Shown piece by piece: positions 11,766-29,162 of a DNA stretch of 64,000 nucleotides. Source of the DNA: a virus; the IMG/VR virus record IMGVR_UViG_3300046170_000148, positions 1 to 64,000 of that record; one strand, given 5' to 3'. The notes under the pieces were generated by a model. That model saw nothing but the letters and a program-made list of their open reading frames with translations. It searched no databases and was not told the origin of the DNA. The translations under genes were made by a program, and so were the position numbers. Numbering within the stretch: the first letter of the stretch is position 1; each line of letters opens with the position of its first letter.

Positions 11766-14700
11766 TTAATTAAGCAGTGTGCCATTTCTATCATACACCG
11801 CAAGAAGTCTTGTTGATGCAGGGTTGCCGCCAATCAATGCGGAGTCAGCGTGGATATCACCGGCGAAGGTTGCTTTGTTTGTAGAACTGATGGTAAATAT
11901 ATCACTGTCAGCGCCTGCATATCTTCTAAACTTAAAGTCGCCGTTATCAGCAAGCGTAATCAAACTGTTTTCGCTAACATTGCTGTTATCAAAAGCAATA
12001 GTTGTTAAATCACCCGTGTTACCATCTATGTGTAGTGGCCATGCACCAGTGCTACTACCAGGCCCACCGCCAATTTTCACCTTAGCATAACCACTAGCAC
12101 CGCCGCTTGTAATCCTTACTCCGTCAGCTCCACCATCAACAGCAAATCCTATTCTACTACTAGTGCCTGTATTACCTTTATCGGCATGGAAACGAAGAGA
12201 ACCAGTTCTAGCCATCAATTTGATGATATGGAGCGCCAAAAACGTTAGTATCTAGAAGTTTAATAATTGGGTCATCATTCTCGATATTTAATTCATTGGT
12301 TATTTTGACTATACCAAACTGTGCGGAGTCAGCGCTGATATTACCCGTGCCGGAAATATTATTACCGTTGAGGTCAAGATTGCCACCAAGTTGTGGAGTT
12401 GTATCTTCTACAACATTATTGATTGATACACCCTGTGCAAGTGATATGCTAGTCGCTGAGTCAAGACCTCCTCCTCCGCCTGCGAGTGATGTGATAGTCG
12501 CTGAGTCAACTTTAAGATTACCAACATACAATTGATTATTAAATGTTGATGTGTCACTATCAAGAATCAGTGCCTCAGTATTCTTACCATACAACCTAGT
12601 TGTTCTGTCACCCCTTCTAACCAGAACCGTAGCGCCGATTTGCGGCGGTGCAGGGTTTCTACCCCAAGTTCTTTGAGGAGCATTACCACTAGCTACTAAG
12701 ATTTCAAAAGCATTATTGCCTCTTTCTCCATTAGTGAGAATAGACTTGTCAGAGTCATAGAACGACAAGAATTGAACAGTATCAAATGACCTGAGCTCTA
12801 GTTGTTTGTTACTTATGTCATAACCGTTGGATTGACTTTTTGGTCTTAATGTTGACATTGAGACTGTAAGTGTATCACTATCCCAATCAAGAACACCATT
12901 GCCGCCATGTTGGTTTATGAATTTTCTACCATCAGCAGAACCTCTGTATCCATCCCAACCAGTCGCATCGTTATTTTCCAAACCTTGATAACCAATACTC
13001 ATAACATCATGAGTTGAACGATTACTGCCACCGCGCTGAGACGAATCAAAAGCGTCACGAGCATAGTCAAGTCCACTATCTCTACCGATACCATATGCGA
13101 CTGTTAATGCGCCCGATACGAGTTTAGAAGTAATCCTTGCCGCTTCACTGGCATATGTCGATTCAGCATGTCTTGCACCAAAATCTGCTCGGTGGGCGCG
13201 TAAGTTGTAGTTACCAAGAACAACATGTCTACCCAAGTTTGCTTCTGGGCCTCTTCTACCGCCATATTCAGTCAAGTAGTCAAATGGTGCATATGACCCA
13301 ATCTTATTACCACTTTGGTCACCACCTAAATCAGGTGAAGAAATTGCAATCCTGTCAAGAACGGTGAAGTTCATAGAGTCTGCTTCTAGATAACTAGCGC
13401 GACCTTTGACTTTCAAGAAACTTCTGCCCTTGTCACCGTCAAAGTAATAACCATATCCAAGATATCCTACATCAGTAGAAGCTCTTCGGTCTTCGTCTTT
13501 ACCAATGATTACAAGGTCAGAGTCACCACCCGATGCGTTAATAAATGCAAAGGCGCGATTGTCACCACCACCAAATGACTGGTTTGGCATCTCACCCGTG
13601 GTCGTTGAGTCCATATCCATTCTAAATTCAAGTCGTTTATTATTGAATTGAATATTAGAACGTGCATGGAAACCAGAAGAGTCATTTAGTGATATTTTAT
13701 CATTAACGAGTAATGGAGTAGTGATTTTTGTAATTCTGTTACCACTACCATCGTTTACACCTATACCTACCGAACTATCTCTAAGGTATACCGAACCATC
13801 ACCTCTTGATTTTAGGATTGACATTGGTGTTTTTCGATAGTCTGCCCAACCCCGGCCGCCGGAGAATATGTTCTTACGGATTTCAAAACCAAACCCGCCT
13901 CGTTCTTCAGCGCTGTCAAGAATACTCTGGTCTGAGTCAAAGAAAGATTCCACATAAATTGCCGTTTTTGGATACGCGTCTAAACGATAATCATAACTTG
14001 TTTGAGCGTGAAGGTCTAACCCTTGTGGATGAAGCGCCTGCATTTGTATTTGCAGTTTATCTTTAGCAGAGTCCCAATTTCTTGCTTTTCCTGCGGTTAC
14101 TTTAGCAACATCTCTACCTTCTTTGCTTCCTCTGTATCCATCGTAACCATGATTGCCGCCGGCGGCGTTTTGATACCCAATATGTAGAACTTGGTGTCCG
14201 CCGTATGGATTGGAGGAATAGTAAGCAGAATCCCAAAGCGTCTTCCTAAACTTACCATGTTCACTATCTCTACCCATCTCAAAGGCAATGGTGGTCGAAC
14301 CTGTTGTAAGTTTAGATGCAATCCTTGCCGAATATTTTGCATTCTGCCGTAATTCGCTGCTTGATAAAGCCTGAGACCATTGGTCGAGAACTGGCGCTAC
14401 CAGCCCACCAAAATGATGTCTCTTCCCATGAGCGCGAAGGTTGTGATTGCCGATAACAACGTGTCTACCCATACTCAGTGATGGGCCACGTCTACCATTA
14501 AACGCCTCTAGTATTTCACCAAAACTGTCTATATAACCATAATTAGTTGATATGGCAAAAGCGCCTCGACCAACTTGGTCACCCCCTGTCGTTCCGTTAT
14601 AATCACTAGAAGCAATAGCATCAGCAATTAATGGGGCAAAGGACATTGAGTCTGCTTCGATATAACTACCGTAACCTTTGACCTTCATGAAAGAAGAACC

Positions 14701-17700
14701 AATGTCTCTATCCGAATAGTAACCATAGTTCAAGTTTGGAATAGTGTCTACACCAGCATCAGAGTCCTTACCAATGATTACAAGGTCAGAGTCACCGCCT
14801 GAGGCATTGATAAACGCAAATGTTCTGTTTTCACCACCACCAAAAGACGCTGGTAATTCACCTGTAGATGCCGAATCCATATTCATTCTGAATTCGGTTC
14901 TCTTATTATTAAACCTAATGGTCGAAGGTGCAGCCCGCACCAGAAGAGTCGCTTAGTCCCAGTATACCGTTGATTGTAAAGTCACTATCTGGAAGATTTG
15001 ATATTCTCGATGTGACATTGGTTGCAAACGAACCACCATCAGCAGTGCTGATAGTAAGGACACCTGTTCCCGAATCAAACGCTGTCGAGGATACACCTGC
15101 GACAGATACAGTTCCTACAGAGTCAATAAAACCACTTGCATCAACCGTAAGGACTGGGACAAGTGATGCAGAACCATATGTTCCTGCCGTTACCGTTGTG
15201 TTTGCACTTCTATCAAAGTCAGCAGTAATAATTCCTGCACTGAAGTTACCAGATGCGTCACGAGTAACAATCGCAGAACCCGTGTTCGCGTTTGTCGCAG
15301 TAGTCGCAGAGTTGTTAACTTTACCCGCAGTCGAAATCGTTGCGAGTTTTGTATCAGCAATTGCGGCACTTGCGTTGATGTCATCATTAACAATTGAACC
15401 AGCCGTAATCGCAGCACTAAGTGTTACATTACTCGTTCCATCAAATGATACGGCCGAAGCGGTGATGTCACCACTAATTGAGAAGTCCTGACCCGAATCA
15501 AGGGCATTGGTTGTGAGGGATTTACCTGTTACATCACCAATCAGATTACCTTCAAAGGTTTCTGCAACCAGTGTTGCAAGACTGAATGAAGAGTCAGCAG
15601 CGTTAATAGTTCCTGTCGGTGTTGAGTCATACTCATCAAGGAGTTTCCATTTCTCGTCAGAGATGTCAAAGTAGAAACCCATATGGGTATAACCGACACC
15701 TGATGCGCCTGTGTTTCTATTCGTGAAGAAACCAGTATCAACATTTACAGGTGACGCAACACCTTCCCATCTATCACCTGAGTCGTGACCTGTGGTTGCA
15801 CCGAACTCAACCGAAATATTATCAGTTGAATGAATTTCCTGTGCGTTACCAGTGATTACAACTTTTGTAAGTATAGGTGAGGCAAACGCACTATCATTTC
15901 CAAGTGCAACAGCAAAGGTATCAACACCACCCGCACCAGTTCCTACACCATCAATACGAACATAGTAGGTCTGTGCTGCTGTCCCTGTAAAGTGACCAGA
16001 GAAGAAGGCATCGTCAAGACCCGTTCCTGTGAATGTCGTTCCGGCTTCACCAATCGCATCACCTTCATTGAGACGATAGAATGGCGCACCTTGTGTCACA
16101 TTGGATTGACCCACAGTAGTCTGACTACCCAGAATGGTAAGGTTACCATCGACTTGTAAGTCCGTCCCGATGTGTGCAGATGTGCGAACACGGAATGAGT
16201 TTACCGAGTGATTCTCTCGATTGACCATCATTACACCGTTATCTGAATCACCAGATACAACAACCCAACCCATACACATTGGGAAGTTTGGATATGTTGG
16301 AGGTGTATTTGTTTTACCGCCTGGAGTTACGGCAGATACAAAGAACTGGTCATCAGCATTTAGATTTGCGGTATTAACGTTGGTTAATTGACCCTGTAGC
16401 AACAACATACCATAACTGTTGTTCGCAATGTCGTGTGCTGCAAGACCCTGAGAATTATATGCAGAAGCACTAGACGCATCTGCAAGTGCGACAGTCGGAA
16501 CATTTTGTGCGCCCGAGGTGTAGTTACCACTGAAGTAAAGAACTGAACCTTTCTTTATTACCGAACCACTGTTATTGAACACTCTTTGATGTTCTTGTGT
16601 GCCCAGTTCAATGGGAAGTCCATTGATGTCATTATAATAGTTTAGATTCTTGTGTTCATTATCATAGAACAATAAGCCTTCACTATATGGTTGATGATTA
16701 GAGAATGTAGTCGTATCAAACTGAACATTCAGAAGTGATGCGGAGTCTGCTACGAGTTGTGTCGTTTTCAGTTTATTCTCAACACGCAAGTCATCAAAGT
16801 GTTCACTCAAGCCATCGACAAGAATAACACCGTTATTTGAGTCAGCGACAATAACGCGACCAATATGATGTGGGAAACCAGTATCAACCGTCACAGTTGT
16901 TTCTGTTACAACACCCGCAGAGTCAGGAGACAAGAACAGAACATTACCTTCTGTCATTCCACCTGTATTGACATCACGAACCAGACCATAACGAGTTACC
17001 CAACCATGTGCGCCATCTGGAATGTCCATAGTCGCAAGGCCAAACACAGAACTACTCGTAGAAGTATTTGCTCTTGCTTTCGTAATAAGTGGGTGACCCG
17101 TCACCGTTTCAGTTCCAGAGATGTATACTGCATCACCATTAGTGATTGCCGCACCAGTCTCGTTTTTCACATACAGGAATGTTTCCTGACCGATGTTTAG
17201 ATTTACGTCTGGATTGGAATTTTCGGGGGTGTTAAGTCTAACCGATAAACCTTTGTCACGGTCAGAGTCAAAATATACTGAACCCGCAGTCTGTGAGAAT
17301 GCACTGGTCTGTGGAACAAACCGAATACCTTTTGATACTGCACTATCTTGAGTGACCTTACCGAATGTCACATCGTCTGTTGTTCCGACTGCCTGACCAA
17401 TACTGATTTGACCAGCAGCACTATCATAGGTGACACCAGTTCCAGATTGTAAAGCATTTCTTGAGAGTGTGACAAGATTTGCAGAGTCCACATTGAACTC
17501 ACCAGTAGATGAGTTGTATACGAGACCTTTATTTCCAGTCAGATGCGCTCTTACTTCAGATGCAGATGGGCCAGTGTATGTAAATACACCTGATGAACTG
17601 TCATATGTGAGTGACCCGTCACCGCCTGTGTCATTTACAAGCAATGATGCCTTCGCATCACTGTCTGCCCTCGCAGTGGTGTAATAGAGGTTCGTTCCCT

Positions 17701-20173
17701 CTGCAACATTAGTTGTTGATTTAGTAGCAAGTCTAACATCAAAGTCACTATCTGCTCTTGCAGTAGTGTAATAGAGGTTAGAGCCTTCAGGTAGTTGACC
17801 CGTATTTGCATCGCCGAGGTCACTGTCAAAGTTTGCCTTTGTGTATACACTCTCTACATCAAATGAGAACTGACCCGCAGCACTATCATATGACAGGTCA
17901 CCCGATGCAGAGAACAAGTTACGAATCGTAGTTGTTGTCTGTGCATCTACATTATCAAAACGAATGTTCGTAATGGTCGCAGAGTCGAATGTTGCCTGAC
18001 TTCCTGTCAGTTGAGTGTTCGCAAGGTTTGTAATCGTTGCCGAATCAATCGTGGCATTGGTAACTGTTGCAGTGGTAGTCGTTAATACACTGATGCCCGC
18101 ACTATCAATCTGTGTCTGTAATCGTGTTGCGAAATCACTGTCAAAGTTTGCTTGGCTGTAGATTTGTTCAACATCAATCGAGAAACGACCCGTTGAACTG
18201 TCGTATGTCATATCTCCGCCAGCACTAAAGTGTGCGCGAACCTCACTGGACGATGGCCCTGTGTAGGTGAATACACCAGTGGCACTATCATAAGACAGTG
18301 AACCATCACCACCCGTATCGTTGACAAGGAGAGATGCCTTCGCATCAGAGTCAGCACGAGCAGTTGTGTAATAGAGGTTTGTGCCTTCCGCAACATCAGA
18401 AGTTGTTTTGGTTGCAAGTCTTACATCAAAGTCACTATCCGCTCTTGTGGTCGTATAGTAAAGATTTGTTCCCTCTACAAGATTACTCGTTGTATATGGG
18501 TCGAGTGTAATCGTTGTGAGGAATGTTGCACCATCAGCAGTGCCGATGGAGAGATTGCCGTTTGCAGAGTCGAATGAGAATGAGGATACACCCGCAACCG
18601 CGACTGAACCCGCACTGTCGAGTTGACCCTGTGCGTTTACTGTGAAGACAGGAATCTGAGATGCAGAACCATATGTCGCTGCGGCAACACCCGTGTTCGT
18701 TATAGAAATCGTATCTGTCGAACTATCGTAAGTGATACCTGTGCCACCGTCAAGGGCTGCACCTAAGTCACTGTCGAAATTAGATTTGGTATAGACTTGT
18801 TCCACATCAAAGGAGAACACACCTGTTGAACTATCATAGGACAAGTCACCAGCAGAGGAGAAGTATCCACGAATACTTCCGATAGATGTTGTATCACCCA
18901 ACGCACTATCAAAACGACCACGAGTATAATACAGGTTAGTCCCTTCAGTGATATCACTTGTCGTGTTGGTCAGTGTGGTGAACTTCAGTGTTCCGATATT
19001 GGCACTATCAAAGGTTGCCTGTGAACCAGTGAGTTGAGTGTTTGCCAGATTGGTGATAGTTGCAGAATCAATTCTTGCTTGATTTGAGTATAGTTTGTAT
19101 ACTTGTTGTTCACCTGTAGATGAGGAGTCAACCAGTCTGTGCCATGAACCACCATGTGCAAAGTATCCCCGACCCGTTGCGTGAACGTGTGCAAACATAC
19201 CATGATAGGTAGACGCACTTGGAAGGTCACCCTCTGTGCTGTATACGTTTCCAAAGAGAATCTTACCAGTTGTCTGGAATGTCTCTGAACCGATTGTCCA
19301 GTAGTCATTCGCCTCGTCCCACAGAAGTGACTTGTTTGCATCATCACCACGTTCAATCTCGATACCCGCATCTTCACTGGCTGAACCAGTTGCGTTAGAG
19401 TTCAGAACAATGGTGTTGTCTGCAAGTTGGATTGTCTCTGTGTTGACAATCGTCTGTGTTCCCGATACAGTCAGATTACCACCAATCGTAAGATTAGAAC
19501 CAATCGTAGTAGACCCACCAACGGCGAGACCATTTGTGATTGTGGAACTATCTGCGGATGTTCCCCCAGTGAAAGTCTGCGTTCCAGATACAGTCAGATT
19601 ACCAGCGACATTCAGGTCACTGTGGAATGTTTCCGCAATATCTGTTCTCGCGACATCGGAGTCGTTGAAACTTAATATGCCTTCTGAACTATCGAATGAT
19701 AGAATGTCACTGTTTGTCGTAGACACTTTGATACTAACAGCAGTCTTACCACCATCACTATCAATAATGACAAAGTTACCGTTACTGTCTTTTAGGTCGA
19801 GTGTCCCCAGAGTAATTGTATTTCCTGAAAGGAACAGGTCTCTCCACTTATTGGTAGAACTGCCGAGGTCATATGCTTCGTTACTATCTGGTATCAGAGA
19901 GCCAGTAAATGTCGTGTTGGTAAAAGCAAAGGTATAATCGTTATTATCACTATCAAATGTGACAGTGACATTATCGTCACCTCTAAGATTAGTTACTTCG
20001 TAGTTACCAGATACTGAATTGTATGCCAGAATTGAACCATCAGATTCATTTGCGGTTACATCCACACCACCCAAATTGGTAATGGCAAAAGCACCAGCGG
20101 TAACTCTTTTGACAGGAGTTCCTACTTTTATTTTTTTGATTTTAATCGTAGGGTCTTGATAAATAATTTTCAT
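11766..20173 (-). CDS. Giant tail fibre protein (~2801 aa), frame interrupted at two places
   Basis: Three overlapping frames (14915-20173, 12208-14940, 11766-12239) make one protein if a base is removed at the GGG of 14934-14936 and at the GG of 12212-12213. The first join yields DSSGAAAPSTIRFNNKR, matching an internal paralogous copy DSSGFHARSNIQFNNKR; the second yields YHQIDARTGSLRFHAD. The first 1750 residues carry many copies of an EGTNLYYTTARADSD-type fibre repeat alternating with DGSLTYDSSTGVFTYTGP units. Residues ~1760-2640 hold two tandem copies of a domain with GRHVVIGNHNLRAH. The end is VYDRNGTLLN. It is a host-recognition fibre by repeat type and position; the receptor is unknown. 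Confidence 0.8.
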
Positions 20174-20607: not shown

Positions 20608-21306
20608 CTAGAAATCTGACATTATTTCTTCGATGGTATCTTTTTGTATATCTAATGCCATATCAGACATATCTATTTGGTAGGCAACTGTTAAACGCCA
20701 ACAGTCTGTCTTTGCACTGTGATAACACAACTTATCCCAAGACTCTCCATAATGACCAAAGTATCCTGCTTTACATTGCCATCCAGGCTTATCCTGTAGG
20801 ACAACTTCTTCACCAGTCTTACCATCAACATATGAAAAACTACCTTCACCTGTTTCTGACCAAGTGAAGATAAAATTATACCCAGGCGCATTCGCGTTAT
20901 TGTGCCATGAGATAAAACCGCCTGGCGGATATAATTGAGTCAATGCATTATTCTTCACGAATAGTAGATGTCCAAGACGTTCACTATTCTCACCAGCTCT
21001 TCTCCGAAAATCCACTTCTTCTTGGGGTGTCATTTTTATTGAATGTCTTTGTTGGTCAGTTTTGAGTGGATATCCTAATATCTTTTCTGGATATCCATCA
21101 TGACCTTCGTGTAAACCTATAATATTGTCACGATACTTTTCGTTAGTGTATTTTTCACGAGTTCCATTAGAGTCTTTACCACCATCGAGGTGTAAAACTT
21201 TTTTGACATAATTCGCATTTTCGTAATACCAGAGATAATGATTTAGCGCTTCAAGTATAGTCTGATTCCTAATCGGAATATCAATCATTTGTTTGTGTTC
21301 GGTCAT
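20608..21306 (-). CDS. 2OG-Fe(II) oxygenase-like protein (prolyl 4-hydroxylase type)
   Basis: 232 residues. The C-terminal half has a cupin-like pattern: LTQLYPPGGFISWHNNANAPG, then YNFIFTWSETGEGSFSYVD, then LCYHSAKTDCWRLTVAYQI. The first His (in SWHNN), the later His (CYH) and the Arg eight residues on (CWR) fit the iron and 2-oxoglutarate ligands of this superfamily, although the usual HxD acidic ligand appears as HxN. The start overlaps the upstream glycosyltransferase stop as ATGA. Such genes recur next to tail fibres in marine T4-like phages; the substrate (fibre residues or a glycan) is unknown. Confidence 0.55.
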   Translation of the reverse strand: MTEHKQMIDIPIRNQTILEALNHYLWYYENANYVKKVLHLDGGKDSNGTREKYTNEKYRDNIIGLHEGHDGYPEKILGYPLKTDQQRHSIKMTPQEEVDFRRRAGENSERLGHLLFVKNNALTQLYPPGGFISWHNNANAPGYNFIFTWSETGEGSFSYVDGKTGEEVVLQDKPGWQCKAGYFGHYGESWDKLCYHSAKTDCWRLTVAYQIDMSDMALDIQKDTIEEIMSDF

Positions 21307-22537: not shown

Positions 22538-24496
22538 TTAGGCACACCTCAGATAGAGAGTATATACCTCAATTATGTCCGTGTCAGAACCAATCACATC
22601 CGCGCCTACAAAATTACCAGTAAAGTTACCAGTCACAAAGTCCCTACCATAGTTGCCTGTATAGTTACCAGCGAAATTGCGAGAATAGTTACCCTCAAAG
22701 TTACCAATAAACGTTCTTAAATAGTTGCCAGCATATTCACCAGCGAAGTCTCTACTGTAGTTGCCTGTGTAGTTCCCTGCGAAGTCTCTTGAATAGTTGC
22801 CTGTATAGTTACCAGCAAAGTTTCTGGAATAGTTGCCTGTGTAGTTGCCTGTATAGTTACCAGCGAAGTCTCTACTGTAGTTGCCTGTGAAGTTGCCTGT
22901 GTAGTCACCAGCAAAGTTACGAGAGAAATTGCCAGCAAAATCGCCAGCAAAGTTGCGAGAGTAATTACCAGTAAAACTAGGAGTCGTTGTAGATGTTCTA
23001 GTAGAGTTTGCAGTAGAGTTTCTCGTCGAATTTCGGGTATATGCGGTAACATCGTTTCTAGTAGAAGTTCTCGTTGAAGTTCTTGTAAATGGAGTGCCGA
23101 CATAATATGTCGCGACACCGTAAATAATGTTTCCGTTTGAGAATCGAGCATAACCCCTAGTAAAGTTACCAGCAAAGTTACCAGCAAAGTTACCAACAAA
23201 CGTTCTACTATAATTACCAGTAAAGTCACCAGTAAAGTCACCAGTAAAGTCACCCGTAAAATTATCAGTTCTCGTAGAAGTTCTTGTATATGAGGAAGCT
23301 CTAGTTCTTGTTGAAGTTCTTGTATATGAGGAAGCTCTAGTTCTCGTAGAATTTCTTGTATAATCAGCTGAAAATGCGGAAGTTCTAGTTCTTGTTGAAG
23401 TTCTTGTATAATCAGCTGAATATGCAGAAGTTCTAGTTCTCGTATAATCAGCGGAAAACGAAGAAGTTCTAGTTCTCGTATAATCAGCTGAAAATGCGGA
23501 AGTTCTAGTTCTCGTATAATTGCCTACATACGTCAGGCTTCTATATCCAATGACATCAAATGTATAATTAGAAGTTCTCGTCCTTGTGTAGTCAGCGGAA
23601 TACAAAGAAGTTCTAGTTGTTTGTGATGTTCTAGTCGAGGCTTGAGGAGCAACCGCCCGTCTTGTATCGGTTGCAGTTCCCATTGCTTTCCAAGTTCCCG
23701 TATCAGTCGGTGCGCCTTGAGTCGCACTACGCAACTGATATGCGCCAATACCATTTGTTGTTGCCATCACATTGGACATGACTGCACGACCAAATGTCTC
23801 CCCGATATCAGAGTCATTCATCTCTTGAATGCCTTGAAATGTGCCTGTCAAACCAGAGGCACGTTTCAATGATACTGGACGTGATTGTGTAGGAATAGAT
23901 GCACTATCACCCGATGTCACATAGTTCTTCACATAGAATTTATACGGTGTTTGTGATGACCCAATCGTATCCGCAAAAGCAATTCCATATAGTGTTGTTT
24001 CTGTCTGTGTATACTCTGCGCTCGGTGTAGAACCGCTGAGACCAAGTTTCATAACACCAGCCCATTGATTGTCGGAGTCGAATAGATATTCTTTTAATCT
24101 ACCCGCAATGGTGTCAACTTCGGACGAATCCATTTCAGTTAGTTGGTTAGGTGTTCCCGAAACAAATTCAACAGGATAACGTCTATCAGTTGATAAAACA
24201 GTCTTACCAGTTTTCTGATAGATGGGTGTATTAGTTGTTGTGGGAGAACCAGGCGCTGAACCAGTAGAACCTGTGTAAAAAGTATCAGTGTATGTTCCAA
24301 TAGTATTTGCATTACCAGATGCATCACTGACCGCATATGGAGCTAAACTCAGGTTTGAACCATAATCACCACGGAGGTAGTCTGCAATACGAAGTCCTGC
24401 TTGATATGCAACCCATTCCTCATCAGCAGAATCCATCTGATGAAGATTACCGTCAATCGCACTCGCACTGTCCAGTCTTAATATAGTTGTTCCCAT
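22538..24496 (-). CDS. Tail fibre with tetrapeptide repeats (fibre A)
   Basis: 652 residues. The N-terminal 270 residues (MGTTILRLDSASAIDG; DEEWVAYQAGLRIADYL) resemble the N-terminus of the neighbouring fibre B. From about residue 285 to 630 the chain is nearly all tetrapeptide repeats: first YTRT-RTSA-FSAD units, then aromatic-x-G/R-N/D units such as YTGN, FAGN, YSRN, FTGD. The C-terminus (EVYTLYLRCA) is shared with fibre B. GATAAATA, a late-promoter variant, lies 5 nt before the ATG. A repetitive beta-structured fibre is inferred. Confidence 0.75.
   Translation of the reverse strand: MGTTILRLDSASAIDGNLHQMDSADEEWVAYQAGLRIADYLRGDYGSNLSLAPYAVSDASGNANTIGTYTDTFYTGSTGSAPGSPTTTNTPIYQKTGKTVLSTDRRYPVEFVSGTPNQLTEMDSSEVDTIAGRLKEYLFDSDNQWAGVMKLGLSGSTPSAEYTQTETTLYGIAFADTIGSSQTPYKFYVKNYVTSGDSASIPTQSRPVSLKRASGLTGTFQGIQEMNDSDIGETFGRAVMSNVMATTNGIGAYQLRSATQGAPTDTGTWKAMGTATDTRRAVAPQASTRTSQTTRTSLYSADYTRTRTSNYTFDVIGYRSLTYVGNYTRTRTSAFSADYTRTRTSSFSADYTRTRTSAYSADYTRTSTRTRTSAFSADYTRNSTRTRASSYTRTSTRTRASSYTRTSTRTDNFTGDFTGDFTGDFTGNYSRTFVGNFAGNFAGNFTRGYARFSNGNIIYGVATYYVGTPFTRTSTRTSTRNDVTAYTRNSTRNSTANSTRTSTTTPSFTGNYSRNFAGDFAGNFSRNFAGDYTGNFTGNYSRDFAGNYTGNYTGNYSRNFAGNYTGNYSRDFAGNYTGNYSRDFAGEYAGNYLRTFIGNFEGNYSRNFAGNYTGNYGRDFVTGNFTGNFVGADVIGSDTDIIEVYTLYLRCA
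22600..23520 (-). repeat. In-frame 12-nt repeat array encoding tetrapeptides
   Basis: The DNA repeats with a 12-nt period (for example four consecutive GGTGACTTTACT-type units near 23220-23265) and a 36-nt higher-order period encoding YTRTRTSAFSAD. The array lies wholly inside fibre A and keeps its frame. Similar arrays occur in fibre B at ~24560-24690, ~25130-25480 and ~25900-26130. Confidence 0.85.
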
Positions 24497-24504
24497 AACG
24501 GTAT

Positions 24505-27500
24505 TTATCCAACTTTTACATAGAGTGTATAAGTCTGAATTGTCGTGTTGGTTGTCCCGATTGCCTCACCAGTATAGTCACCTGTAAAGTTTCTGGAATA
24601 GTTACCAATGAAATTACGAGAGAAGTTACCAGTATAGTCACCCGTATAGTTACCAGTAAAGGTGCGAGAGAAGTTTTCACCAGCTAAATATTCTGATGTT
24701 CTTGTTCTACCGTAGTCAGCAGAAAAGTTACTACTTCGAGTTGCCAAAGACGTTAATACCGATGACCTTGTTGAAGTTCTAATATAAGCTCCATCGAAGT
24801 TGGCTGAACCATAGTTACCAGCATAATTCCCCGTATAAGTTCCAGCTTTTACTATCCGATAATATTTTTTACCAGACACATCGGTTGTGATTAACGAACC
24901 TCTCATAAATGTGTTATAGTTGTAAGTTGGTTGATTCTCTTGTAAGGTGTTATAGGCAATGCCCGCCGAGTAGAGTGTTGTTATGCTATTATAGTTGCTG
25001 GTGTTATATCCCAGAAACTGGCCATCCCACACAACTTGAATTTTATCGTAAAAGGCATTCGGGTCAACCGCCCAATAGAATTGGCCAGGCGGGCCCTAAC
25101 GGGTTGTTTCCATAGGCACTACCCGAACTTATAGTCGAATTCCTCAGGTAGTTGCCGATATAACCGCCTGTATAAGTGCCTATATAGTCACCTGTAAAGT
25201 TACCAGTATAGTTACCCGTATAGTTACCCTCAAAGTTTCTACTATAATCACCTGTATAGTTACCAGTAAAGTCTCTACTGAAAGACGCTGGGCGAGTTCT
25301 GCTGAAATTTCTTGAATAGTTTCCTACAAAATTTCTACTGAAACTGCGTGTATAGTCACCAATATACTGGTAAATTACATCCTGTAATGAAGTTCTTGTG
25401 GAGGTTCTAGTTGAATCTCCAGTAGAAGTAGTAGTGGAGGTTCTGGTTGAATCTCTGGTAAATGAAGAAGTTCTAGTTCTCGTTGATGTTGTGGTATAGT
25501 TACCTGTGTAACTGGCGGTCTGTGTGCCAGCCAATTTAACTCTGTAGTAAATGTAAGCAGGCCCTGTCGCTGAATTTAGGTTACTTAACTTGAATGAATC
25601 GCCCGAAGAGAAAGAAAACTCTTGACCAGTAGACGAATAAAATGTTCCACTCGAAGATGTGCCATGACTTATCGATTCTGGGTCGCCTTGTCCGCCACTA
25701 GAGACCGACATCTGAACTCCATCGACCCATATTTCAAAGTTTACATATGATGGGCCACTCATTCCACCATATACTTGCGCCCCTAGCGATAGCGGTTTCT
25801 GCTTCGGTTTTGTAATTCCAAATACTGTCATCACTCGCAAAACCCTGTGATGGAATGGCGGATACTGGGTCGGTTTCGGATACAGTTGATGTTCTCAAAA
25901 AGTCACCAACAAAGTTACCTGCGAAGTTCCGAGCAAAGTTGCCCTCAAAGTTACCTGTGAAGTTCTGAACAAAATTACCCTCAAAGTTACCAGCGTAATT
26001 ACCCAAGAACGAGCGAGTAAAAGTTGAGAAGCGGTTTCTGGTATAATTTGAAATATATTCAGAACTTCGTGTCCTATCAAACTCACCAGTATAATTACCA
26101 ATAAAACCAACAGAATAGTTACTAGTTCGAGTTCTATCATATGTTTCAGAGAAGACCGTAGTATATTCCGATGTTCTTAGGTTTGTGTATGTTGATACAC
26201 GGGTTCTTGTATAGTTTGTGTCAACAATTGATTTTCTTGTATCTGTTGCAGTTCCTTTAGTAATCCAGTTACCCGTATAACCCTGAGTGGTTGGATTACC
26301 TTCAGTGGCAGAAAAAATCTTAATTGAACCAATCGCATCAGAATCAGATGAAATATGGTTGCGAGCTCGCGTCCCAATCGTTTCGTCTAATTTATCAGAG
26401 TCAGCAATTTGAAAACCCTGAAAGTCATTCTTAAATATAAGACTAATTTCGTCTGCGGAGTCAGCGCCGATAGGTTGATATGAACCTCCACTTTTATGAA
26501 ACGGGCCAAACTCACCACCAATTCTACCATTCCAAACAGAAACTGCACTTAACCCTTGAAGGATTTCCCTTGTTGCACTATCTGGTATCGGTTGTTCTGC
26601 GGCAGTAGTCGAAGAAGTAGCTCGGGAACGAAGAAAGTTTACGCCTGGTCGAAGGAATACTTCAGTCGCAAGGTTAGTGCTTTCGATTGTATCTTCTGTA
26701 GGAAATAACTTAGTTGTATTGCCAGAACTAGGAAAACTGGTTGTCCCCATGGCATAAACTTGAAATTCTGTATCACTATCAAAATTAAATTGTATAGTCC
26801 ACTTACCATCACTCTCAACATGTTTTTGCATTAATGCATTTGTAGCAGCGTGAGTCGCACGAGAAGAACCAAATCTTGCAGAGTCCGCTAGGTCTATACG
26901 ACCTTTGATGCCGACCCACTTTTGTGGTAGTGAACCAATTCTATCACCAAGTGTATCACCTACACTATCTTTATGAACATGAAAAGTAGAACTAGTTGAA
27001 AGTTTACTATTGTTATATTCCGCGCCAGTCGCATCGACGCCATGAACTCGTGGAGCGGTTAAGTATGACGTTTTTTGTTTTCCCTTTATTGAGAAACGAG
27101 TATAACCTTCACCATTGATAGTTGTATCGCTAAATGTGTTCTTATATCTACCCCATATTGTATCATTCCATTCAGCGCTCAAACCAATGTCAAGATACGA
27201 TGACCCAGCAACCCAACCCGAATCAGTTTGTAAATTTGTAAGAGAAAAACCGACTCTGTTAGTTGTAGATTTTGGATATATTGTGCTTGGTGTAGGGGGA
27301 AATCTTCTACCACTAGTTTTTGGTAAATCACTGTCTCGACCCACAAATTGAAGTTCCCCATCAATTCTTACTTCTGCGCTATCAGGGTTATATTTCATAG
27401 TGAATGGTTTTGCACTGTCAGAAGGAACACCAATACCAGTCATATCAATCTTTTGAAAGATACTATATGATATATCACTATCCGTGGCAGAGTCCGTTGT

Positions 27501-28043
27501 TCTTGTATCTGAGAAGAAATTTGGTAGGATGTTTGACCATCCACCATTCGCAGAATCAAAGTCTGTTACTTCTGACGCAAGACGAACAGAACCCGCATAG
27601 TCGTATTTGTAGATGCGAGAAACAATTTCGTTGTTTACAACGTTCCAATCACTGTCAGAGAAAGCTACAAGTTTCTGTTGTGATGCACTATCAGTTTGAT
27701 AAAAAAGATTCGCATAGTTTGAATCATTGTATGTTTCTAATGAACCCTCACCATCTGTTCCGACATTTCGGTAGATATTACTACTAATTGAAGTGACAGA
27801 TAGAAGTGACGTGTCACCACCAGTTCCTGTTGCGGAATCGTATACTGTATTGGTCAGAGTTCCTACATCAAAGACGTTCCGTCCTCCAGCGTGGAATCTT
27901 GTAAGAGCAACTATATCAGAACTATCAGATTGTCTGAGTTGTAGTCCAGCTCGGTATGCTAAGAAATCGTAATCATCACTATCGAAGCTTTGAAGTCCAG
28001 CACTATCCTTTAGTTTTAGTGGAACGCTAACGCCCATTTTCAC
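24505..28043 (-). CDS. Tail fibre with tetrapeptide repeats (fibre B, ~1178 aa), frame interrupted at two places
   Basis: Three frames (25734-28043, 25064-25840, 24505-25032) fuse when one base is removed from the GGGG at 25780-25783 and from GGGCCC at 25091-25096. The joins read TAIARGAQVYGGMSGP and NNPLGPPGQFYWAVDPN, both natural. The N-terminus (MKMGVSVPLKLKDSAGLQSF; DYDFLAYRAGLQLRQSD) parallels fibre A. Three patches of tetrapeptide repeats (YTGN, FEGN, YSRN, FTGD, TRTS) alternate with unique Ser/Asp-rich domains, and the end is QTYTLYVKVG. Probably a tandem-duplicate fibre of A with additional receptor or attachment domains. Confidence 0.75.
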
Positions 28044-28048
28044 TGTCC

Positions 28049-29162
28049 TTAATTTAGTTGTGTGCCAGTTTCATCATAGATTTTTGGTGTATCTGCCCTT
28101 AGTGCGTTAAGTGCGTTTACAACTGTAATTCTTTCATTACCAACAAATCCATCAGAATCCAACAATCTTAGACTACCGATTGTATTGCTATTTAGACTTG
28201 AACTTGAGTCCAATAAAGCAAGGTCTTGTGATAATGAGTTGATTGCAGTTGTAAGGTTTGTTTTATCATCAATATCTGCATCAAATGAAAGGCTACCCAG
28301 TGCGCTATCTAATTTTTCGAATGACCCAAAGATATTATCTGCGACTAGGTGATTGTTGTTGCCGTTAGAATCAATTGCGATGTCTGCGAACAATTCGTTA
28401 ACTGCACCCGCGATAGTCTGTGCAGTGGTGTTGAGTGATGCGCTACCGATTTCAGCGTCAAGTTCATTAATACCGCCAACGACTGTCTGTGCGGTAGTTG
28501 TGAGTGATGCACTACCAATCTCTGCATCAAGTTCGTTTACTGCATCGGATAATGTGGTTGCAGTAGTCGTTAATGCTTGAGCAGGTTCAACCTTTGTGTT
28601 GAGTGTATCAATCTCTGCTTTCCAGTTCTGCAATCGCACCACTTACCGTAGAGGCAGTAGTTCCCATTGCACCCGCAGTGATTGTTCCCAGTTCTGCGTC
28701 CAGTTCGTTGATTGCTTCCTTTACCTCACCCGCAGATGTGGTAAGTGCAGCATCACCGATTGAATCGTGAAGTTCGTTGATTGCTTCCTTGACTTCTTTA
28801 TTGAGTGTCGTAAGTGTTGCGTCACCCAAAGAGTCATGGAGTTCGTTAATCGCACCCGTAAGAGTTTTTGCAAGGGTAGTGAGTGTTGTGTGCGGTCTTG
28901 CACCAATATCACTGTCGAGTTCTACTATAGCAGCCGTTAAGTCAGTCGCAGTCAGACCACCCGATGCTAGGTCAGTAGCAACGAGGTTATTAGAAGTTCC
29001 TCTAACAGCAACTTCTAATTCGTTGATTGCAGCGACAGCGCTTGAATCTTCATTTGTGTTCAATCGTCCTGTCGCACCCAAATCTAAAGAGATGGTATTG
29101 ACACCATCTACCAATTGACTAAAGGTATCTGTAATCAGTGTTTGGGTCGGTTTATTTGTCAT
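28049..29162 (-). CDS. Repetitive coiled-coil tail protein (INELDAEIG repeats), frame interrupted once
   Basis: Two frames (28608-29162 and 28049-28642) join into 370 residues if one base is removed from the AAA at 28619-28621, giving IAELEAEIDTLNTK. The protein repeats the motif AINELDAELG / GGINELDAEIGSAS about eight times at roughly 30-residue spacing, separated by LTTTAQTV-type linkers, a pattern of trimeric fibre shafts or bridging proteins. The C-terminus KIYDETGTQLN resembles the giant fibre end. It overlaps the preceding 69-residue gene at 29162. Confidence 0.7.

Follow-up and report, generated by a model that had tools for sequence, protein, structure and literature searches.

Does the fibre gene at 22,538–24,496 encode a fibre built on a four-residue aromatic period, and if so, what could such a chain fold into? 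The gene, fibre A, lies in a 64,000 nt stretch of viral DNA (the window), positions 1 to 64,000 of IMG/VR record IMGVR_UViG_3300046170_000148. A first-pass annotation, made from the letters alone, had described over 300 residues of strict four-residue units, with a period that fits no known fibre shaft. The points of interest that emerged are the four-residue rule, an apparent closed-loop topology and a constant cassette of downstream genes.

Genomic setting of the fibre genes

The source record (144,192 bases) carries a T4-like virion module with portal, sheath, terminase, scaffold, neck and baseplate genes. The portal protein shares 71% identity with its counterpart in phage C48C1 (Kyanoviridae) and roughly 50% with the portals of Methylophilales, Pelagibacter and Synechococcus phages. 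The source is best explained as a T4-like marine myovirus. On one flank, fibre A and the neighbouring fibre B are bordered by baseplate genes (a phrog_438 wedge, a phrog_358 protein and a phrog_25848 tail-fibre-like gene), and on the opposite flank by genes with tail-fibre-assembly-like and structural PHROG matches. Given this position within a T4-like virion module, both are best explained as tail-fibre proteins, and are predicted as such. Coordinates are given in Table 1.

The repeat had been reported from fibre A alone, but fibre B, upstream of it, has the same units: all three open reading frames into which it is divided in the window (25734–28043, 25064–25840 and 24505–25032) contain them. 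Fibre B reads through intact in a separate contig (L006) that is 99.9% identical to the window. Compared with L006, single extra bases at 25783 and 25096 break fibre B, and another at 28621 splits a 370 aa tail-fibre-like gene; all three are probably sequencing or assembly errors.

Asp-Ser dipeptides exceed expectation about threefold in three long tail/fibre-region genes (12208–14940, 23 against 7.7 expected; 14915–20173, 46 against 16.5; 25734–28043, 22 against 7.1), an excess absent from portal, sheath and scaffold. Repeats like those of fibre A were not found in the examined stretches of the portal relatives HTVC008M, Melnitz and Mosig. In the Pelagibacter phage HTVC008M (L216, 7562–9557), the deposited record annotates the curli genes CsgF, CsgG and CsgB.

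Table 1. Features of the fibre locus (window coordinates; residue numbers refer to fibre A)
Feature	Coordinates	Strand	Remarks
Protein of about 230 aa (232 aa)	20608..21306	-	Fold unassigned; YPP.G..WHNN.NA ... H.A.T...R
Glycosyltransferase-like protein, about 250 aa	21303..22064	-	Invariant Y.D.D, DQ..LW, RWN, H.S....K
Chaperone-like protein, about 150 aa	22042..22500	-	K/E-rich; first cassette gene
Fibre A	22538..24496	-	652 aa, complete gene; identical in contig L006
C-terminal strand, residues 631-652	22541..22606	-	Terminus IIEVYTLYLRCA; pLDDT 81-94
Tetrapeptide-repeat region, residues 287-630	22607..23638	-	From aromatic spacing and autocorrelation
Run 3, residues 508-623	22628..22975	-	29 units YTGN/YSRN/FAGN
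Mid-loop stretch, residues 453-507	22976..23140	-	No regular aromatics; part irregular, part S/T/R-rich units
Run 2, residues 413-468	23093..23260	-	FTGD/FAGN units; end irregular
Run 1, residues 299-406	23279..23602	-	Mostly 12-residue form YTRT-RTSA-FSAD; tandem DNA repeats
Conserved N-terminal domain, residues 1-286	23639..24496	-	Hairpin-like units, the last interrupted by the repeat
Fibre B	24505..28043	-	One 1178 aa gene in L006; split in window
Fibre B repeats	about 25878-26219, 25136-25513, 24568-24840	-	Same tetrapeptide units

The tetrapeptide repeat of fibre A

The four-residue aromatic repeat is real. Past residue 278, 53 of the 65 gaps between successive Phe or Tyr residues are multiples of four (11.8 ± 3.0 in shuffled controls, maximum 23), and the aromatic autocorrelation is 0.44–0.64 at lags 4, 8 and so on to 24, and negative at every other lag up to 24. 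The negative values at lags 3 and 5 argue against a collagen-like (G-x-y) repeat, for which there was also no Pfam match, and against a pentapeptide repeat. The unit consensus is Tyr/Phe, any residue, Gly/Arg, Asn/Asp.

The original estimate of over 300 residues is about right for the region as a whole, but this includes irregular stretches, and the three regular runs total 280 aa. The pattern breaks near residues 453–468 and is followed by an S/T/R-rich, aromatic-poor stretch to residue 507, and there is one five-residue slip (FVTGN) near residue 619. The interval first assigned to the repeat (22600–23520) overlaps the region in Table 1, but its end is about 120 nt short of the repeat start.

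Over 340 residues the repeat contains 39 Arg and lacks Lys, Cys, Trp, Met and His altogether. It is underlain by tandem DNA repeats of 12–108 nt, including periods of 36 nt, and identical tetrapeptides share 64% of their codons, compared to 45% expected from usage, which points to a degree of local duplication in addition to protein-level conservation.

A 178 aa open reading frame (TLLVTLLVTLLVT...; 22717–23253, minus strand) overlaps the repeat in another frame and is open in L006 too. It is probably a by-product of the repeat codons.

A fibre family in viral metagenomes

Six N-terminal domains were aligned and used to search IMG/VR, which yielded 144 relatives. The loci that were fetched contain 99 distinct repeat fibres, 73 of them complete, and the complete relatives span 409 aa (a member in L063) to 2101 aa; the C48C1 member has 3347 aa. 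Family members share a layout in which a variable tetrapeptide region separates a conserved N-terminal domain from a conserved C-terminal strand; the C-terminus is of the YTLY type in all 77 relatives that have an intact 3′ end. Fibre A conforms to this layout, having EENYLAY-like and GTATDT motifs in the N-domain, the tetrapeptide region and a YTLYVRxA C-terminus. A scan for the repeat DNA revealed, among the matches listed, a distant branch with the same layout, a looser unit grammar and C-termini such as STVKLWVRTA. Other repeats can occupy the slot between N-domain and C-terminal strand: NYAGPT hexapeptides in L048 and L049 (also L050 and L081), STFQSQQPTPSSFIRN-type units in L071 and GPNYTGFYTGVIPGSPTP-type units in L113.

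Among 50,697 deposited phages, the fibre proper was found only in C48C1, S-RIM2 phages matching through aliphatic TGN repeats only. Members are frequent in contigs of uncultured aquatic T4-like phages, yet only one deposited phage genome has the fibre. A literature search on this tetrapeptide repeat returned nothing relevant, and the fibre A/B family is a sizeable one that is uncharacterised and unnamed. When a bacterial genome collection was searched with the repeat pattern, three contigs matched, with a family member on only one (L092, JAAXIF010000028.1). This 142 kb contig, catalogued with a Sphingobacteriales MAG, contains the gene for a very large family member and looks like a phage contig misbinned with that genome.

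Unit composition and grammar

Across 9090 family units, position 1 is Y in 46%, F in 34%, R in 9% and S in 7%. Position 2 is mainly T, A, S or V (V/I/L in 25%), position 3 is G in 40% and R in 25%, and position 4 is N in 38%, D in 19% and T in 18% (N/D together 57%). Lys, Cys, Trp, Met and His are nearly missing. Arg units typically have Tyr before and Phe after them: Y-x-R-x-F accounts for 648 of 994 cases (228 ± 13 when shuffled), about threefold above chance, and is the commonest form in 55 of 60 proteins; in fibre A the count is 9 of 11. The most frequent spacing between Arg units is three units (187 of 452), and spacings of one, two, four and more are also present. A strict 12-residue coil was rejected on the runs and the Arg-unit spacings.

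In the cleanest pairs of close relatives, every insertion or deletion in the repeat spans a multiple of four residues (10/10 for L019/L031 and 8/8 for L016/L022). Over all pairs, irregular inserts and poorer alignments included, the proportion is 60/144; aligners also tend to prefer in-register gaps. The fibre A repeat contains 23 N-x-S/T sequons. Selection for N-linked glycosylation sequons was rejected, since T/S is rarer after N (38.5% family-wide) than after D or other residues (46–47%).

Topology of the repeat region

An AlphaFold2 monomer of whole fibre A, built with 26 sequences, gave pLDDT values of mostly 70–93 for the N-terminal domain (residues 1–286) and 81–94 for the C-terminal strand (633–650), with residues 269–284 and 633–650 both predicted as long strands. 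Units of the N-domain have the form ...TDT(R)...loop...Y-x-[IL]-Y-x-[RK]. The last of these, GTATDTR, has no second strand ahead of the repeat, and the protein terminus supplies one (ETYTLYVRTA). When the C-terminal 11-mer was compared with the N-domain, the second strand of the preceding hairpin unit was the top match in 34 of 51 proteins and among the top three in 46. The hairpin units of the distant branch are duplicated in all five proteins, with 0/2000 shuffles reaching the score (YRLQATAPSGGTWV...TYLWQKTA compared to YKVQSSTPSGGTWV...VYLWVKTA). Profile alignment of the main family places the hairpin units in the same order, a weak result (P 0.018), and in fibre A alone the duplication is not significant (219/2000 shuffles).

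In proteins with a single irregular insert, the insert lies near the middle of the loop, with a mean asymmetry of 0.19–0.32 compared to 0.5 for random placement (P <0.0001 to 0.01 depending on threshold, redundancy removed; a post hoc test, devised after the sequences had been viewed, with a simple null). The repeat lengths before and after the insert are uncorrelated (Spearman −0.03 over 28 proteins) while the asymmetry is significant, so the support for a mid-loop position is moderate only. Many family members have at least two inserts, and a simple two-leg stalk does not follow for these.

From predicted secondary structure and sequence together, we infer that the C-terminal strand (633–650) pairs with strand 269–284 of the N-terminal domain. 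The likeness of the C-terminal strand to an N-domain hairpin strand, its high AlphaFold confidence and the location of inserts near mid-loop suggest that the repeat forms a giant loop within an N-domain hairpin, and not a linear shaft. The term fibre shaft, as used in the first-pass annotation, is thus not supported: one hairpin appears to hold both ends of the repeat, and the chain looks like an out-and-back excursion.

A conserved three-gene cassette

Directly downstream of the fibre gene are three genes (Table 1), which occur there in 38 of the 38 loci whose sequence extends far enough; their order is constant and their spacing nearly so. A 39th locus (L020), cut inside fibre A, was left out of the count. 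The cassette is kept in the distant branch too. Reciprocally, a repeat fibre lies upstream in 67 of 68 loci of the 250 aa gene and in 65 of 68 loci of the 230 aa gene. The exceptions too encode family fibres, though ones in which the repeats are few or of another kind: L266 and L334 belong to a single contig that has a 446 aa family member, and L348 and L370 sit on the contigs of L049 and L048, where the member has NYAGPT repeats. Among the 50,697 phage records, the three cassette proteins were found only in C48C1, which also has the fibre. This linkage argues that the three genes serve the fibre, and it provides a metagenomic marker for this phage group.

The 250 aa protein has a DxD-type motif (Y83, D85 and D87 invariant in 21 sequences). 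Its best Pfam matches, Glycos_transf_2 (E about 0.003) and Nucleotid_trans (0.05), are both below the cut-off, and by its sequence it is GT-A glycosyltransferase-like. A chaperone role for the 150 aa protein is a guess from its position and composition. Identification of the 230 aa protein as a 2OG-Fe(II) oxygenase was rejected; the resemblance was noticed by eye and profiles do not confirm it. The protein has HxN in place of the HxD of an HxD...H...R motif, no relevant Pfam match, and a P of 0.09 by hhalign against phage 2OG oxygenases. It is hypothesised that the cassette proteins chemically modify the fibre. Nothing specific was found in the literature on fibre glycosylation, and the two-way linkage with a glycosyltransferase-like gene makes glycosylation by phages of their own adhesion fibres directly testable.

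Possible folds of the repeat

Searches with fibre A against Pfam, PHROGs and solved structures (PDB) gave no match, and the repeat profile, a check proposed at the outset, retrieved no solved fibre repeat family. A fold search with the whole-protein model was equally without a match. The AlphaFold2 monomer has a pLDDT of 25–45 over the repeat, and a repeat-only model from an alignment of 25 repeat segments has a mean of 37. The first-pass annotation had named a disordered prediction as a result that would count against a fibre fold. These values go part of the way there, but such monomers cannot separate disorder from a fold that depends on partners; with confidence this low, disorder remains compatible with the repeat. 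Along the chain, bulky positions (Y/F and G/R) alternate with small ones (T/V/A/S and N/D/T), a pattern that would suit a beta strand with two unlike faces. The new beta-solenoid or stacked aromatic ladder suggested in the first-pass annotation are both still candidate folds.

The best overall explanation, held tentatively and at a little less than an even chance, is a closed-loop tetrapeptide stalk in fibres A and B that is served by the three downstream genes. The C-terminal strand would close a hairpin with the N-terminal domain. The tetrapeptide region would then form a stalk-like loop that starts and ends at one base and carries, towards its tip, irregular modules that probably contact the receptor. 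The repeat would be rich in beta structure, one face presenting T/V/A/S and N/D and the opposite face Y/F in alternation with G/R, and would become ordered mainly once chains or legs are packed against each other. Of the three downstream genes, one would encode a chaperone-like protein, one a glycosyltransferase-like protein that may decorate the repeat, and one a protein with unassigned activity. By changing the number of units and exchanging mid-loop modules, the phage would adjust its reach and its binding to the host. A more specific picture is rather unlikely: a new kind of viral fibre in which a tetrapeptide beta-stalk, hundreds to thousands of residues long, runs from and back to one base-domain hairpin, grows unit by unit and, like a phage 'collagen', is modified along its length by a glycosyltransferase of its own together with a second enzyme. 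If the simple four-residue aromatic Tyr-x-Arg-x-Phe rule does specify a fold, it would represent a new fibre architecture.

The low pLDDT over the repeat is also what would be seen if it were a disordered, sticky tether, with Tyr, Phe and Arg as stickers and Gly, Ser, Thr and Asn as spacers, making many weak contacts with the host. Its composition, rich in Arg and devoid of five other residues, falls on the disordered side of the boundary in a charge-hydropathy calculation, and the very variable length of the family agrees with this. A tether has, however, little need of strict register over hundreds of residues, of distinct residue sets at positions 2 and 4, of the Y-x-R-x-F grammar or of indels in steps of four, and it is judged somewhat unlikely. 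The repeat might alternatively have no structural meaning and be a low-complexity product of DNA slippage. Local duplication does occur, as the tandem DNA repeats and the raised codon similarity of identical units show, but the grammar is kept in 99 diverged proteins (looser in the distant branch), which largely refutes this idea and leaves it scarcely credible.

Two ordered arrangements compete with the closed-loop stalk. The half-octad VxG[ND] of the T4 gp5 triple-stranded beta-helix (VxGxxxxx octad) resembles the [FY]xG[ND] of the fibre, and a three-chain helix of this kind, with the aromatic replacing the gp5 valine, would form a linear base-to-tip shaft. An aliphatic tetrapeptide query does match gp5 beta-helix chains through VxG[ND] (best E 0.006–0.009), but unrelated chains of equally low complexity reach similar scores. 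In its favour, too, the N/D positions of gp5 make a surface ladder (PMC4576200). Against it, the period of gp5 is eight and not four, it is aliphatic, and it is a spike rather than a fibre. Moreover, Arg on the aromatic face is poorly suited to a narrow core, and both ends of the region appear at the same base. Membership in the gp5 group was rejected on the period of four, the aromatic position and a repeat profile without a gp5 match up to E 10, and a gp5-like helix is improbable. A single-chain beta-solenoid whose 12-residue coil comprises three tetrapeptides is highly improbable: the prevailing three-unit Arg spacing, the 36 nt DNA periods and the 12-residue form of run 1 all fit it, but other Arg spacings exist, as do indels of 4 and 8 residues, and AlphaFold2 builds no confident solenoid.

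Comparison with known systems

The view that the period fits no known fibre shaft holds as far as solved structures, Pfam and PHROGs are concerned; it is weakened by the related-looking gp5 octad and by cyanophage [VL]TGN runs. The latter, in structural proteins of Synechococcus phage S-RIM2 (SWRG_00083) and Prochlorococcus phage P-TIM68 (AIR93436), are tandem hydrophobic-T-G-N tetrapeptides like those of fibre A. They differ in using Val/Leu instead of Tyr/Phe (Y or F occupies position 1 in 80% of the 9090 family units), in being short, and in lacking Arg units and the YTLY C-terminus; as far as examined, these phages have no cassette genes. Chlamydia Pmp proteins share with fibre A an F-x-x-N motif in a beta-rich surface protein. 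In Pmp proteins the FxxN motifs lie within a larger repeat that forms beta-helix coils (PMC11166332) and are not tandem every four residues, unlike those of fibre A, which has tandem four-residue spacing and no GGA (GGA[ILV] in Pmp).

The closest counterpart is a 3347 aa hypothetical protein of phage C48C1 (OQ984149, CDS0201). It shares the N-domain, has about 2000 residues built from these repeats, ends in the matching C-terminus TETYTLYVRVA and is followed by the same three genes. It differs from fibre A in being one giant fibre with many more globular inserts, and is annotated as hypothetical only. Residues of about 2008–2080 and 2084–2156 of this protein (L004) form a long exact internal duplication (TRHRSYLYYSTDTSTNQQFFEPRVDDM...), suggesting that a module was recently duplicated.
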